Below, in pieces: positions 1 to 61,869 of a DNA stretch of 64,000 nucleotides. A program made the translations under genes and the position numbers. How positions within the stretch are numbered: the stretch's first letter is position 1; every line of letters begins with the position of its first letter. Below the pieces are notes generated by a model. The model saw nothing but the letters and a program-made list of their open reading frames with translations, did no database searches and was not told the origin of the DNA. Origin of the DNA: Dactylellina haptotyla (taxonomy: Eukaryota; Ascomycota; Orbiliomycetes; Orbiliales; Orbiliaceae); contig CM062384.1 in NCBI GenBank assembly GCA_031310005.1, forward strand, positions 2,046,001 through 2,110,000. Reading direction: 5' to 3'.

Positions 1-1836
1 TGCATACGGTGCCGTAATTGATAGAGTGGTCCAGGTGGTCTGTGGAGCCTGCTAGACCAACTGACGTCTTGATTCTCAAGCTCACGACGACGGGCTGGGG
101 TTTGGGCTTGTGCCATGCATCAAGGCCAGTGATCGCGGGCCTATAATTTTATTATTGTTTTTTATAAATATATGAATGCAACAAATATGTGATATATCTT
201 GCGATCGACTTACAGGGTCAACTCATTGACGGCGATAAAGTCGGAGACATTCTCAAGCTGGAACGACATGGTCTTCAAGTCTATATAGCTGCGGCGCTGG
301 AGTTCTCTCGACACCAGTGGCAACGAAAGGCGAGGGTAGTAGAACCTTTGAGGATGAAATTGTCTTGGGAATATATTTCTTCGGCAAAGACGAGCTGCAA
401 GGGACACACACGACCTAGCGGCCGACATATGTATACACCGTTATTCGAAGCTTACACACAGAGGATAAGTAGTGCAGTTCAGGGTCGGTTATCGCCTGCT
501 GCCAATTGGGTGGGCTAGTTGCAGTGCAGTCGTGGTGCGGACTGGGAGAGACGGGAAAATGCAGTGCAATGGCATTTCGCACGGCAGTACAACCAGCAGC
601 TGTTAATTCGGTAGGTTACTCCCAATCCTGTGGGAAACGTTCGACAGGATTAATTTTCACGCGGTCCTGCAAACATCGGCGACCGGCAGGCGGCAGCAAC
701 ACAAAACGTTCGGATTGGGCTGCTAACAAAGGGCTGGTTCGATGCGGACATTGCCTGGACATGGTGGACATGGTGGACGAAAGTTTTCACATGGCGGGAT
801 CCCGATGCGGACCTGCAGAAGAATCCTCGCTAGACGGGGAGTGGAAATGAATGGAATGTCAACTGCGGAGTGATTGAGGCGAGGGTGCTATTTGGAGGCC
901 GGAAGCATATATACACGTCTGGCTAGCTATAAGTGTGTATACACGCGGTTTTTATAACCATATCCTTCGTTCAGTTAAAGATCGATCGATTAGATTAGAT
1001 AGCAGGGCAGCATCATCGTGAAGATTTATCTAAAACTTGTCGGAGGTTGTGGAGACCGACCCCGCATGTTCGGCATCGGGTAGACTGAAGAGGAGGAGAG
1101 GCTGATGGATTAATAATGATAATATCGGTGCGGGATTCGCAAAAGCGCATCACGCCTCTGTTTCTTTATACCAGCCAGTCGACGACGGCTTGAGTACGAT
1201 AGCGATACGGATGGATTGGGGGTCAGCACGGATATTCAACCTCGGTAATTAAACGGGCCCAAATGGAAGCTGGTTCGGTCAAACCAGCCAGCAGCCAGCC
1301 CCATGCAAGGTCCACATGGACTCGTGCAGGCCATGGCCCGCCGCCCATAAGGCCCATCCATCATCCATGGCAAGCAGAAGGCGAGAAATGCGGAGAGACA
1401 ACGGGGTAGCAGCACAGCAAAGAGCCCGACGCTAAACGAGCATCTGGCAGCTGGCAGCAGAATCGACCGGGGCCGAACATGTGAGAGCGGTGCCTCGGCT
1501 TGACCGTCCCCTCCGCCCAAACAAACCCTCCGCGCCAACCACACCCACACCAGCCAACAGCACCACCGCGTAGCAGCTGGCTGGGTCGCAGCAGGTAAGC
1601 CGAAGTGGACAGGCGTCACCGAATCCCGCTTTCGTCCTTTCTTGCTTCCTTTCCCCGGCTACCGCCCTCCTCCAGGCGAAATAAATATCTTGCAGCCACC
1701 GTCCCGGCTTCACCTCTTCCTCTCTTCCCATCCACCCATCCATCACTCCCATCCCATATATACACACACACACACACCCGTATATATACCCAGACCACCC
1801 GTTTGTAGTATATAGAATATACGTAGTACCTGCAAA
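1..1836. other. Gene-free left edge and 5' flank of the nitronate monooxygenase gene
   Basis: I recognise no gene here. The short open frames have no motif I know and overlap on both strands. The last 300 bases are pyrimidine-rich and carry a CA/TA dinucleotide tract at about 1757-1796, just upstream of the first coding exon. This looks like a promoter and 5' UTR. Confidence 0.5.
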
Positions 1837-51565: not shown

Positions 51566-52390
51566 TTACAAGGTAAAGAACATGACCGAGGCGAAAATGA
51601 CCAATGTGATTTGAAAAAGAGACAGCCATTGAGTATCGCCAGTAGTTCGAACGGCCGCATTGTGAGTCGAGGTGCTTGTACTTCCACTGGTAGTGGTAGA
51701 AGCTGCTTTACTTCCACCATTGGACGTAGGAGATCCGGTACTGGTCTGAGGGGCTTCCGTGCCAGTAGACTCGGACTTATTGCCTTCTGCAGTCGATGAA
51801 GCGGAGCCACCGCTCGTCTTCGAAGCCGACTCTGTTCCAGCAGCCATGGATGCTGATGAGGCGGCGGATGTAGCTGCAGGCATAGTGCCACTTCCACTTG
51901 ATGCTGCTCCAGGGCTAGATGGCTTGCCAAGCTGAGCACTGGGGAGACATCTCGCTTTCTGGATGGCGGGCTGCCCAATGACATCCAAAGCAACGATGCT
52001 ATCCGTTCCAGAACAGCAGCCCTCAGCGCCTCTTACCATATAATCCGACAGGGGAACTGCGGTATCTGGGTTTGGACAATCTTCTCCAACTTTCGTTGGT
52101 CCAGAGAGGGCAGTACCGTCTTTCGTGACGTCGAAATTCCGGAGAACGGATGAAAACTCCGAACAAGAAGCCTCCGCAATGCCCAAGTTTATCGCTTGAC
52201 AACAAGAGTCAGACACACCACCCCAGGTACCGCATTCTGTTCCTTGGGGGCACCCGGTTGTGCCGCATGGGATACAGCCGTTTGCGGCCTTGCACTCAAT
52301 TCCAGAATAGAAAATGAAGGTGTAGAAATCAATGTTGATTGCGAGAGCCTTGGCAGTAAATAGTGCAGATAGGAGGACGGAGTAACGCAT
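51566..52390 (-). CDS. GPI-anchored, Cys-rich secreted protein, unknown function
   Basis: Single exon, 274 residues. A signal peptide is clear (MRYSVLLSALFTAKALA). The mature N-terminal half is Cys-rich, with CKAANGCIPCGTTGCPQGTE, GGVSDSCCQAINLGIAEASC and a second group at EDCPNPD and GAEGCCSGTD. A Ser/Thr/Gly/Ala-rich stalk of about 80 residues follows, a typical O-glycosylated spacer. The C-terminus is a hydrophobic tail (LFQITLVIFASVMFFTL) after THNAAVRTTGD, so a GPI attachment site near Asn-Ala-Ala is likely. I do not recognise the Cys pattern as a named domain; it is not CFEM, which has eight Cys in another spacing. Likely cell-wall or plasma-membrane location. It could serve adhesion or shielding, but this is inference. 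Confidence 0.8.
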   Translation of the reverse strand: MRYSVLLSALFTAKALAINIDFYTFIFYSGIECKAANGCIPCGTTGCPQGTECGTWGGVSDSCCQAINLGIAEASCSEFSSVLRNFDVTKDGTALSGPTKVGEDCPNPDTAVPLSDYMVRGAEGCCSGTDSIVALDVIGQPAIQKARCLPSAQLGKPSSPGAASSGSGTMPAATSAASSASMAAGTESASKTSGGSASSTAEGNKSESTGTEAPQTSTGSPTSNGGSKAASTTTSGSTSTSTHNAAVRTTGDTQWLSLFQITLVIFASVMFFTL

Positions 52391-53735
52391 TTTGATTGAT
52401 TGCTTGGATTGAAGGAAGGCTTGAAAACACTATAGATATTTCAATTCTTGTGATATAGTAGGTCGATGCGTCTGATCAGGGGAGAATGGATGACTTGATA
52501 TCTATAAATTTTGTATATACTTGAATTGTAAGTGAGAGCAATTATGGGGGAAGAACCAAGCTTTGGAAATTCTACAATAATCCTTCTATCAATGAATATT
52601 TATACTATCCGAGTTCCGGACGCCCTAGAAACGAAGAAATCCTTCGGGATATCACATTCAGCCGCACTACACAATATTATCAACCGTTTTGCGCCCTGAA
52701 CCCCGATTTTCATAGGCAGCTAAATTGAACGGGAAATCGCCTTTCCGTATTTGACAAGAAGAACCGTGTGCGGGCGGCGCCCTATTGGCTATTTGAATAA
52801 TTACGGGCTAAAGTTGAAGGGGCGCGACAAACGATGGATTACGTATTCTCAAGGTGCATTCGGTGGTGAAATCATTTTGATCCCACGAACGCTAAGCTTT
52901 TTAGCCAAGAAGCTCAAGCCTTTTTCTTTTTCCCCTGAATATCTATTTTGGACACCTCGCTGTGCCCCTGTAGACAACTCAAAGAGCCTCTGTTCTATCC
53001 TTCAAAATGGTGGTGTGTAGTTGCAACATAGAAGACGTATCTGAGACAAAAGCTGAATGAAATTTCATATCTGGGGTCGGCTTGTTGGTTCTCGCTTTTC
53101 ATGAAATTGCGGGCCTAGTCTGCGAGACCAGCCTAATCTTGAAAATACAGTTTTCGGCCTCCTTTCAATATTCCCATTTTACTAAGCATATGGCGTGGCT
53201 GGTACACATCAATCACATACTAGAAACTACTTACGTGAGTGGTGCCAAACATTGAGTTGATAGATCAATCACGCTCGCACCACCTCAACCTAAGATACCC
53301 ACCCCATCAATATTCCTATCTTATGCAGGTGTGTTGATGTCCCTCGATTGCAACCTTAGACAAATTGCGAAGTATCATGCACCTATTATCATTATTTACG
53401 ACGCATGTACAGAAAAACGAATAATAGCAATGCATATCTGGTCTCGCAGGATTGAAACCTACAATAAGCGTTAGCTAGGTCTCATGACACTCAGACCTGA
53501 AATCGAGGGATATTGGGCAACGCAACCTACCGCTCCAGTTTCCATTTCTTCTGAACTGAACTAAACAGAATATTTTTTAAAAACAAAAGGAAACAAGGAG
53601 AACAGATTTTTGTTGTGTTGTCTGGCCTGCGAGACTAAGGAGAACCATATAAGTTTGAAGGCTGGTCTCGTTTTGAAGGCTATATTTATTGTATTTTCTT
53701 TTTAAGTTACATTCACATTCCGAACAATTCCGAGA
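52391..53735. other. Spacer with repeated GTCTCGCAG words
   Basis: Promoter side of the GPI protein gene and 3' flank of the esterase gene. No coding gene is recognised. The right half holds an inverted-repeat cluster listed separately. Confidence 0.55.
53120..53670. repeat. Cluster of inverted CTGCGAGACCAG / CTGGTCTCGCAG words
   Basis: CTGCGAGACCAG at 53120-53131 has a perfect inverted copy (CTGGTCTCGCAG) at 53438-53449. Partial copies occur at 53626-53635 (CCTGCGAGAC) and 53661-53670 (GCTGGTCTCG). A further copy, TGGTCTCGCAGGA at about 55159-55171, lies inside an intron of the neighbouring esterase gene. Confidence 0.7.
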
Positions 53736-57562: not shown

Positions 57563-58376
57563 TTAGTTTTCCTCCACAGATTCCATCACCAAATTGGTAA
57601 TAACCAGAATATCCTTAGCCCCTCTTTTGACGGCACCGTGAACGTGAGCCAATTTTCGCCTCCTTGGTGCGGCCACACCAGTTCGAGCGCGAGCAAAATC
57701 AATTACTAGAGATCGAGCCACAGTTGTAACGCCACTCACCACGAAGCCCGTGATGGGTAAAGTAGTAGAGGTGACAACGCCCGGCGCGGTTCCCACTAGT
57801 ACTTTGGCTGGTGCGGATATGCCAACCCCTTCATTCTGTCTGATTAACCTTGTTCCATTCTTGTGGAAACTAGACGCAATTATTTTACATTTCGTCTGTT
57901 TGCACGGGTTCCCTTCAAGTATGCTCTCTCCTTTGGCATTGGAGCAACAGAAGAACTCAATGGACTTTAAACGCTTGCCGAAGGGCGTTGTAATCTTGGC
58001 TCCTTGTGTAGATTTAGTATCGAGAATAGCAACAGTGCTTTTATCTCGATTAGGGCCAAAGTTCCCACCGATGGCTGCGATTGATGGTATCTCATCTGAT
58101 CCACCGCCGGCGTGATGTGTGATATGGGTTACGTTGATGTTATGAAATGTAACACCGCCAAGTTCGTCGAGTGCGACAGATGACTTTGAATCTGGTAGAA
58201 TGAGGTTTTGGAACTATATGCAGAATAGTAAAAAGTTAGATGGGACAACTCTATAGTTTGTCCTTAATATATCGACTTACGTCTAGTATCGAGCTCGCAA
58301 CCGACACGGCTGAGGCACGGCTATAGAAGGCGGATAAGGTAAGAAAAGCAAGAGGAATAGAACTTGATGATCGCAT
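57563..58376 (-). CDS. Secreted DFxxL/CC-type protein, paralogue A
   Basis: Exons are 58376-58281 and 58213-57563, giving 248 residues. A signal peptide (MRSSSSIPLAFLTLSAFYSR with ASA cleavage context) is followed by SSILD at the exon end. The second exon starts FQNLILPDSKSSVALDELGG. A central core LKSIEFFCCSNAKGE is followed by NPCKQTKCKIIASS. A dibasic stretch (APRRRKLAHVHG) precedes the hydrophobic C-terminal part (KDILVITNLVMESVEEN). The N-terminal motif, the CC...C...C core, the phase-0 intron after ILD and the Arg-rich loop recur in the next gene, so the two are paralogues. The N-terminus resembles the F-x-D-L...Y-G-G pattern of a broad group of fungal extracellular jelly-roll-like proteins (recalled). 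Function unknown; not an enzyme I recognise. Confidence 0.8.
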
Positions 58377-59110
58377 GGTGATATTATGAATGGTTATTCG
58401 ACTAGCGAATCCAAGTTGGTGTATAATTGTGTGAAAAAGAGGGGAAACTCGACTACCAGAGTCTAATAAGTGAATGAGCGAATGCAGTATATCTTAACCA
58501 CCAGAGCGAAACGATCCGACAGATACCTTTATAAATGTTCGAAGGGAGCCTCATCTGCTCATAAAGGTACACAGGCTTTCCTATAACTTAGCCATGCGAT
58601 GGAATGCGATATGCGGCAGGCTACAGATCAGATGCTTCCTACCCCTATATTCGCTAATGACAGCCAAAGTTCCAGATTTTCGCAATTCTTGAAAATGGCA
58701 CAACTCAACCATAGGAAATTTCCGGGCCTTCTAAAGAATGCTACTCCAAATGCCATGAATACTTGGTCCACGTCAATTATATGGAAAGTAGTGGGGGCTG
58801 GGGACTGGACCAAAAATTCCAATCGGGAGCTGGAGCTCCATCTGAGAATGCAACAACGAAACCATGCTATCTAGATCCGGTTGTTTCCTGAAACATATAT
58901 AGTTTCCTGTACAGTTAGCCACCTATTACGCACTTTGGATACTGTATGAAAGGCGTTTTTCAGACTAAACATAAAAGTTGAATACGTTGCCAAGCTAAAA
59001 TTTGCTATCGCGATAAGAAAAGTTACTTGCAAATAGGTAGAAACAAAAAAGGGCAGTGCATCGAAGTTACCGATCAAAATGCTAATTGGCATTCCGATCC
59101 CGTATCCCAC
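58377..59110. other. Spacer between paralogues A and B
   Basis: Promoter of paralogue A and 3' flank of paralogue B. A short plus-strand frame (58599-58874) has no motif. Nothing else is seen. Confidence 0.5.
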
Positions 59111-59855
59111 TTATACCATCTTGTTAAAAACAAGCTTGAAAAATTGAGCCGTAAACTTCACGCCTCTCTCCTCAAGATGCTCTTCCACTTCGCGGCGACC
59201 TAATCCCCCACCGGAAACGATTTCGAAAACTACGGTTGTAATACCTTCAAGGGAAGGAGCACCGTTGAATCCGTCGGCTAAACCTGTAACAATAGTGATA
59301 ACAGTATCCAGGCCTGGTATCCCAAGACCGGCTGCAGGCGCAACATTAAATGACTTTTTTACCAATTCAGCACCTTTGTCATCTTTGCCGGTCACCGTGA
59401 CAGTACATGGTATCTGTTGGTCGCATTTAGTGGGATCGGTGCTCTGGCAACACTTGAGCTGGATTCCTTGTAAAGAGATTGGGCCACTGGTAGAAGTGAT
59501 CACACCAGTCAGAGCCCCTTTGGTAGGATCGACTTTGCTGATGATGGCGAATGGACTCCCGCTACCACCGAGCAGAGAGCCAAGGGAGAGACCGCTAGGT
59601 CGGAAAGCCGTGATACCCTGCCAGAGGAAACCGGCGTAGCTGGTGAGGGGGAGGGCTTGACCGAGTGGGAGTTGAAGGTCTTGGAACTAAATAAAGCATT
59701 GAGATCAGCACATTTTCTTTATCTCTACTAATTTGCGACAATATAAAGATTCCTACATCAACAATATCCGTGATTACGTTGCCTGAGGCTCCACGGAAGG
59801 AGAGTAGTCCAAGGACCGAAACCGCCAATAATACACCGTTCCAGATTCGCACCAT
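59111..59855 (-). CDS. Secreted DFxxL/CC-type protein, paralogue B
   Basis: Exons are 59855-59757 and 59686-59111, giving 224 residues. The signal peptide is MVRIWNGVLLAVSVLGLLSF. Exon 1 ends NVITDIVD and exon 2 begins FQDLQLPLGQALPLTSYAG, then FLWQGITAF; this phase-0 intron sits at the same place as in paralogue A. The Cys core reads LQGIQLKCCQSTDPTKCD, then QQIPCTVTVTGKDDKG. A Gly-rich stretch and a dibasic loop (GGGLGRREVEEHLEERGVKF) precede the C-terminal strand. The core T-V-T-V-T-G-x-D-x-x-G looks like a beta-hairpin. No transmembrane or GPI signal is seen, so the protein should be released. Function unknown. Confidence 0.8.
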
Positions 59856-61134
59856 TGTGAGATATATATATTGGTAAGCGCTGTAGAAGCTTCTTATCTT
59901 TGGTATTAACGAGCTTAAATGATTCCGAGATAGCTAGATGTTGATATCGAATCGTGATTGTAGTTGGTGTTGAGGCACTCGTAGATAATCAATAGTCCAT
60001 GCTAGCCCGTTTTATAGAAACCGCGATAGATCAAGATAGTAGCATTGAATCGCAACCTTGTGTAGGACAGAAAGTGACAACTTCAATCTCAATTTTCTTA
60101 TCACGCTGTCGTCCCACAAGATTTAAACCAAACTGACGATCACACATTCTTTATCCGGCGTCCCTCCGGCGCGATTGGCCACTACAAGACGTGTCAAGAG
60201 TAGAGATACACATACATAACAACTGCAAAACTAAAGAAGGAAAATTTTTCTTTCTCCGCAGCCACCAAGTGTACTGAAAGGTTTTTTTTACCTTTGACAG
60301 ACAGCGCCTCCCTCGTGCAACATCGAGGCTCAGCTGTGTGTTGCACAATAGACGAACAGGGATTCTCCCACAACCTGATTGGCTATCAACTACCCAAACG
60401 GTCCAGAACAACCAATCGAATCGTCGGTCATGTTACACAAGCTACCAAGCTTTCCGAACAGAGGTTGGCAGCTAAGGGAAGTGCCACAAAAGCAGAACGT
60501 ACCTGGCGATCCGGAGAAATTCTTGCTGCCTCATCTCGGCTTCTCCGCTAACTCTTTATGTAAATGCTACCTAGATTGACGTGCTAAGTGTTCAAAGATG
60601 GAACGGTGTGGTTTGTGAGCTCATGATTTTGATTGAATTTCGTAAGAATAAAGTACAAAGACATAAGGATAGATAAATTTCGCCACCAGAAAACAGTCTC
60701 ATTATACAAAGGAAATGGTTCCAATTTGCAACGCCCCCGATAGCATTTTTTTTGTGTAAAAAAGGTAGGGAAAATGGAAAGGAAGGATAGACTAGCTAGC
60801 CGGATCATTTTTTTTAGGGGAAAAAAAAAAAAGACGGACATTTTCAGCAAAAGAAAGCACCCAAAAGCAAGTTTAACTTTTTAATGATAAAAGGAAAAAA
60901 ATCCCAAAATTTGTTGTCCCCAAGGTAAAAGAAAATCCGTTAAGAAAGAAATTGTCGAAATGTGGGATTGGATAGTACACATCCTTACCGTTAGTCACAC
61001 TGAAAGAAAAATGGGAAGACTGGAGCAAACCCTCGGGCCCTGAGAAGATGACCCAGTTCTTTTTTTCTAGTCAGCTGAATATCGAAAACGATGCTACTAC
61101 GCTGGATTCGTTGGTGGATTTTGTAGTTGAGAGT
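59856..61134. other. 1.3 kb spacer between paralogues B and C
   Basis: Promoter of B and 3' flank of C. Poly-A/T runs near 60750 and 60820. Nothing is recognised. Confidence 0.5.
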
Positions 61135-61869
61135 TTACAAATCAGCATCGAGGATGATGTTGATGAGGGACCCGACAGCGACATCGCGGTAGTTGCCAGT
61201 TGGTGGGTAGCTGTATCGGCCACGGCCGGTCTTGACCTTGGCATCGACTGAGAGGGCGTCAAGGAGGTCGACTTCGACGTCGACAGAAAGGAGAGGAAGA
61301 CCTGGGCGACCGAGAGTGACAATTCCGTCAACGTTGACATCGACGTCAATGGCGGCAATGGTGGCATCCTTGTTGTAGGATTTGGGGACATAGAAATCAT
61401 GGCTGTAGATCTTGTTGCCGCCGGTCTGCTTGTCGTAGCCGGTGAGTTTGATGTGACAGTCAAGAATGTTGCACTTTGAGGTTAAGTCGGCAGCGCAGCA
61501 GAGAGCCTTGAGGGAGAGGACGTTGAATGGCTTTCCAGATTGGTGGTAGATGTGGCCGGGGCGCTTGTAGTGGCCGCCAATGCCGCCGACAATGCTAATA
61601 CCGTGTCCGTAGGATGGCTTCTTTCCGCCACCGAGGATGCCGCCGAGGGTAGCAAGAACATCCTCGATGATGTCACCAGCAGCGTTCAAAACACCACCGA
61701 GCAAGTCGAAGCACTCAAAGACATACCCGTGGGAGTAAGTGAGTGGCTTGACTTGACCCGGAGCCACATAGTTGTCAGAGAAATCGACATTGTCGTAGCT
61801 GGTGGCGAGGATGGGCTGGGCAACGGCGGCAACAGCCAAAGCGGTAGAGATAGCTCGGAAGGCAACCAT
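61135..61869 (-). CDS. Secreted DFxxL/CC-type protein, divergent intronless paralogue C
   Basis: Single exon, 244 residues. The signal peptide is MVAFRAISTALAVAAVAQPI with a cleavage near LATS. The mature start SYDNVDFSDNYVAPGQVKPL, then TYSHGYVF, lines up with paralogue B (D-x-V-D-F-x-D...G-Q-x-x-P-L-T...Y-x-G). A Gly/His/Tyr insert follows (GGILGGGKKPSYGHGISIVG, GGHYKRPGH). The Cys core VLSLKALCCAADLTSKCN, then ILDCHIKLTGYDKQTGGN, matches B residue for residue in spacing. The C-terminal half has alternating acidic beta-like strands (VDVDVNVDGIVTLG, LLSVDVEVDLLD). The intron of A and B is absent. Composition is more regular and codon use more GC3-rich than in A and B, which suggests high expression. 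Function unknown. Confidence 0.8.
   Translation of the reverse strand: MVAFRAISTALAVAAVAQPILATSYDNVDFSDNYVAPGQVKPLTYSHGYVFECFDLLGGVLNAAGDIIEDVLATLGGILGGGKKPSYGHGISIVGGIGGHYKRPGHIYHQSGKPFNVLSLKALCCAADLTSKCNILDCHIKLTGYDKQTGGNKIYSHDFYVPKSYNKDATIAAIDVDVNVDGIVTLGRPGLPLLSVDVEVDLLDALSVDAKVKTGRGRYSYPPTGNYRDVAVGSLINIILDADL

Follow-up and report, generated by a model that had tools for sequence, protein, structure and literature searches.

Diverged gene families encoding secreted proteins are common in fungi. The described systems closest to the locus presented here are the clusters of sequence-unrelated structurally similar (SUSS) secreted effectors, for example the Tin2-like cluster of Ustilago maydis, in which secreted paralogs are reported to have lost most of their sequence similarity and some proteins of the Tin2 type are fused to Gly/Pro-rich N-terminal stretches (PMC9816061). 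The same study reports conserved cysteine pairs in RNAse-like and hydrophobin-like groups (PMC9816061). Traits of the SUSS type are present in the genes A, B, C and D described below, namely hydrophobic N-termini and the arrangement as four clustered same-strand paralogs. The likeness consists in clustered, probably secreted and strongly diverged paralogs, and these genes, together with a fifth relative (E), were compared with the published clusters at the level of description. Like the Tin2-type fusions, which carry a Gly/Pro-rich N-terminal stretch, D is N-terminally Gly-rich; its repeats, however, abound in both Leu and Gly, unlike the Gly/Pro stretches of the Tin2 type, and D contains a predicted intron, whereas the genes for the Tin2 fusions are described as consisting of one exon (PMC9816061).

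The window, i.e. the whole 64-kb stretch of DNA analysed here, is part of a 39.8 Mb genome in 11 contigs, which its gene content and short introns suggest to be fungal. A, B and C are consecutive on its minus strand and D follows next, giving four same-strand genes in a row. Re-reading of the DNA returned A, B and C with the coordinates given in the first-pass annotation. Gene A consists of a signal-peptide-like exon 1 of 32 codons (58281..58376, minus strand, ending in ...SILD), a phase-0 GT-AG intron of 67 bp with one branch site of the CTRAY type (58214..58280, minus strand), and exon 2 (57563..58213, minus strand), which encodes the mature chain with 216 codons plus stop and the cysteine arrangement CC-x13-C-x4-C. 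Gene B is built in the same order, with a signal-peptide-like exon 1 of 33 codons (59757..59855, minus strand, ending in ...DIVD), a phase-0 GT-AG intron of 70 bp (59687..59756, minus strand) and exon 2 for the mature chain (59111..59686, minus strand; 191 codons plus stop, CC-x7-C-x5-C). Gene C (61135..61869, minus strand) is a single exon of 244 codons plus stop with a signal-peptide-like start, a DF motif without intron and the arrangement CC-x7-C-x4-C. The phase-0 intron common to A and B, with GT-AG borders in both, immediately precedes the Phe codon of the DF motif, as had been claimed. Gene structures were read from the DNA, and the signal peptides of the family members were judged by N-terminal hydrophobicity: the proposed signal-peptide-like N-termini of A, B and C each contain a hydrophobic stretch, the best 10-residue Kyte-Doolittle means being 1.92 (A), 2.84 (B) and 2.24 (C). 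Judging from these features, A-E are probably secreted. Dibasic Kex2-type sites, which were also looked for in the set of open reading frames (ORFs) introduced below, were too common to be informative.

The proposal of a three-gene family was borne out and exceeded, with D adjoining the array and E located on contig C3. D was found in a 10-kb stretch beyond the window end (L005), which was searched for further members; it occupies positions 349-1372 (minus strand) therein, corresponding to 64349-65372 in window numbering, approximately 0.35 kb past the window end. E (L007:1225-2202, minus strand) is dispersed and closest to D. In whole-genome searches D retrieved E at E=1.6e-8 and E retrieved D at E=2.9e-7, the two proteins carrying intron-read residues at their start (19 in D, 6 in E) in these searches, in those of Pfam, NCBIfam and, with a five-row profile, PDB, and in one of the family alignments; the D and E cores used for the shuffling of ten pairs, the held-out profiles and the five-member profile are free of such residues. 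Both proteins start similarly (MHSKHLIIAALSLTATA and MHLKYFYFTAICLTASA), and in both genes a phase-0 intron interrupts the coding sequence close to where the signal peptide ends. This intron lies further from the core than in A and B: an additional stretch separates intron and core, harbouring GLLGG repeats in D. Read from the DNA, the order of signal-peptide-like exon, phase-0 intron and mature exon is common to four of the five genes (A, B, D and E), C being intronless. A search for more copies beside E, carried out with the five-member profile in two adjoining stretches, yielded none, the best unrelated matches there having E=3.4 and 4.6.

We consider it rather probable that A-D are paralogs arisen from old tandem duplications, that E is a dispersed relative, and that the encoded proteins are extracellular and non-enzymatic, with a binding, surface or effector-like character. 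By their anatomy and by analogy, an effector or surface role may be supposed. The alternative to be weighed first is a structural family of the cell wall or surface, for example adhesin-like or spore-coat proteins, which would have no host-directed role and whose divergence would reflect relaxed constraint. We regard it as possible, though somewhat doubtful: the sequence analyses gave no sign of host association, and the repeats of D between intron and core are in line with such a role, as Gly-rich repeats of the GLLGG kind occur in some structural surface proteins, but the C-termini of A-E, inspected by eye, end without a long hydrophobic tail of the GPI-anchor type, and no wall-binding Pfam domain was found in any of the five.

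As regards the reading as old tandem paralogs, a common origin combined with strong divergence is supported by pair shuffles, held-out profiles and identities of 16-35% over aligned columns among A-E (direct neighbours: A-B 28%, B-C 24%, C-D 24%). The proposed matches of A with B and of B with C both beat shuffling, their local scores being reached by 3 and 1 of 2000 shuffles, respectively, and their end-to-end alignment scores by 0 of 2000 in either case. The A-C pair was no better than shuffled sequences, neither locally (483/2000) nor end-to-end (1023/2000), and A and C are therefore joined only via B and the profiles. When all ten pairs were shuffled, five of them beat chance (A-B 2/1000, A-E 3/1000, B-C 0/1000, B-D 2/1000, D-E 0/1000) and five did not (A-C 271/1000, A-D 727/1000, B-E 483/1000, C-D 121/1000, C-E 529/1000); by these scores, the A-E family is a chain and not a set of mutual matches. 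Single-sequence hhalign probabilities ranged from 0.1 to 4%, and when A, B and C were each used as a query against the genome, where only the top candidates of a preliminary pass were scored, each retrieved itself alone. A tandem array can thus conceal homologs from single-sequence searches, each of the three genes matching only itself in its own genome.

Sixteen profiles (five single, three pairs, three triples and five quadruples) were tested on a set of 1018 ORFs (minimum length 80 aa) drawn from 277,287 bases, namely the window, L005, L007 and 20 additional stretches, of which two lie next to E. With the four-member profiles, the held-out fifth member ranked first among the ORFs outside the profile in five of five cases, and this consistent first rank is a stronger point than the E-values (D 1.4e-7, with its close relative E sitting in that profile; C 0.0013; B 0.0039; E 0.033; A 1.4), which are flattering because the null consists mostly of non-gene frames and is easier than real secreted proteins. 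Held-out A obtained 4.4 bits against 3.9 bits for the next ORF, a negligible margin. Smaller profiles gave a mixed picture. The single B profile placed C first (0.034) and A next (0.27), the single C profile B first (0.021), and the single D profile E (2.1e-7) and then B (0.056) on top; the single E profile had D first (1.4e-7), an unrelated ORF second and A third (1.1), while that of A had B first (0.27) and two unrelated ORFs ranking above E. The pair profile B+C returned A first (0.32); C, D and E were absent from the best eight matches of the A+B profile, as were A, B and C from the best eight of D+E. Among the triples, A+B+C and A+B+E both had D first (0.082 and 1.7e-4, respectively) and B+D+E had C first (0.041), with one unrelated ORF above A.

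It could be argued that only A+B and D+E are true paralogs, and that a mere lookalike, i.e. a short secreted Gly/Ser/Val-rich protein with paired cysteines, is seen in C, or in A when set against C and D. The chance-level scores of A-C, A-D and C-D and the absence of C from the best matches of the A+B profile would agree with this, but in local alignment B-C scores best among the three pairs within the window, C takes the first rank as the held-out member, and the order of motifs is the same across the members, which makes the argument an unlikely one.

This order, as seen in the alignment of A-E, starts with DF or D-x-x-x-Q, followed by G-x-x-[FW]-x-[NGC]-[IVF] and a Ser/Gly turn, and continues with I/L-x-x-x-C(C), two more cysteines in A-C and a hairpin starting at the last cysteine. 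The motif G[FYVIL]x[FW]x[NGC][IVF], which was derived from these very members, occurs in 11 of the 1018 ORFs, all five members among them. The CC-C-C core described in the first-pass annotation is indeed present in A, B and C, except that the gap after CC spans 7-13 rather than 6-13 residues; of the 1018 ORFs, four match CC-x(6-13)-C-x(4-5)-C, three of these being A, B and C, compared with 34 of 20360 after shuffling. Within the family the core CC-x7/13-C-x4/5-C is confined to A, B and C: D retains only its first and last cysteine, and E, in anatomy the most divergent of the five, has a different cysteine set. Two further shared features had been listed, of which the hairpin pattern T/S-G/S-x-D/H-K-x-G is exact in one of three genes only (SSFHKNG in A; TGKDDKG in B and TGYDKQTGG in C deviate), and the Arg-rich loop of A and B carries little meaning, as [KR]R is present in 707 of 1018 ORFs. 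That A is a paralog in decay or under relaxed constraint is very unlikely, for although it has the lowest GC3 of the five (0.44; C has 0.66 and D 0.71), the lowest held-out score, and SSF in place of TGK (B) or TGY (C), its open frame of 216 codons, its splice signals and all four cysteines are intact, GC3 is also low in B and E (0.48 each), and the exact hairpin pattern is found in A alone.

Returning to the tandem-duplication reading, a single secreted-protein gene would have given rise to A, B, C and D, with E as a dispersed relative, and the ancestor would most likely have encoded its signal peptide and its mature chain on one exon each, separated by a short phase-0 intron. The intron would subsequently have disappeared from C, and D and E would have come to bear the extra stretch between intron and core. 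For the intronless C, loss in place seems simpler than retrocopy: the gene is embedded in the array and oriented like its neighbours, and a phase-0 intron close to the signal peptide is found in D and E as well. The core (G-x-x-[FW] strand, Ser/Gly turn, C-C...C...C, hairpin) would probably form a small beta-rich extracellular domain. As D has the outer two cysteines only, nested disulphides can be envisaged, with an outer bridge C1-C4, both cysteines of which occur also in D, and an inner bridge C2-C3 in A-C; the cysteines of D suggest that the C1-C4 pair is ancestral and that C2-C3 was added in A-C. The protein, most likely extracellular and non-enzymatic in a binding, surface or effector-like capacity, would diverge fast at its surface while its cysteine core is kept.

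Searches against Pfam-A gave nothing above the curated cut-off for A-E, the best scores being those of BHD_3 (12.8 bits vs 27, in A) and Tse3_cat (13.1 vs 27, in D), and NCBIfam returned 0 families for the five members. A-E are absent from Pfam-A and NCBIfam, and our claim is limited to these two catalogues. Among the papers listed by literature searches, general works on effectors, secretomes and genomes, no title mentions such a family, which is not proof of absence. A layout of fungal secreted proteins, F-x-D-L ... Y-x-G-[FL]-x-W ... C-x-V-x-V-T-G, resembles bacterial jelly-roll domains of the PEP-CTERM type, and B shows FQDL...YAGFLW...CTVTVTG in that order; this is a lead only, and, as regards PEP-CTERM-type domains, A-E have no NCBIfam or Pfam match above cut-off. 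A three-row profile found 0 matches in PDB; with the five-row profile, blasticidin-S deaminase (3oj6, E=0.049) and the small ribosomal subunit protein uS17c (0.64) came up, both of which were judged to be chance matches. AlphaFold models computed from three-row alignments of the same three sequences were of low confidence, with a mean pLDDT of 35.0 (B first) and 31.7 (C first), and the weak strands which both of them show in the hairpin that follows the last cysteine do not count as independent evidence, since the same sequences were used. Tentatively, A-E could represent an uncatalogued secreted domain family, characterised by a G-x-x-[FW]-x-[NGC]-[IVF] strand, nested C1-C4/C2-C3 disulphides, tandem growth, a separate phase-0 signal-peptide exon, neighbours only 24-28% identical and an outer cysteine pair surviving in A-D. 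If such a family is real and widespread, the phase-0 signal-peptide exon, the G-x-x-[FW] strand and the nested cysteines would provide a handle on orphan secreted proteins.

The genes flanking the cluster hint at no function for it. On the low-coordinate side of A lies a carboxylesterase gene (PF00135), and past D there are an ORF of 373 codons that matches no Pfam model and a Per1-like gene (PF04080). Also on the low-coordinate side of A, window positions 51566-52429 (minus strand) encode a protein that contains cysteines, begins with a signal-peptide-like segment and has a Ser/Thr-rich tail and a hydrophobic C-terminus; by eye it is GPI-anchor-like, and it has no Pfam match above cut-off. 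Rfam gave 0 matches over the whole window. When DNA repeats were sought at a minimum length of 20 nt, the stretch holding A-C, but not D, yielded 10 families (20-27 nt, 70-95% identical). The 95%-identical pair (20 nt) has one copy within B and the other upstream of C, at places that do not match, whereas a 24-nt repeat (79% identical), located at 58203-58226 and 59676-59699 on the minus strand, runs across the 3' splice junction in both A and B and is the sole repeat seen to occupy corresponding positions in two genes.
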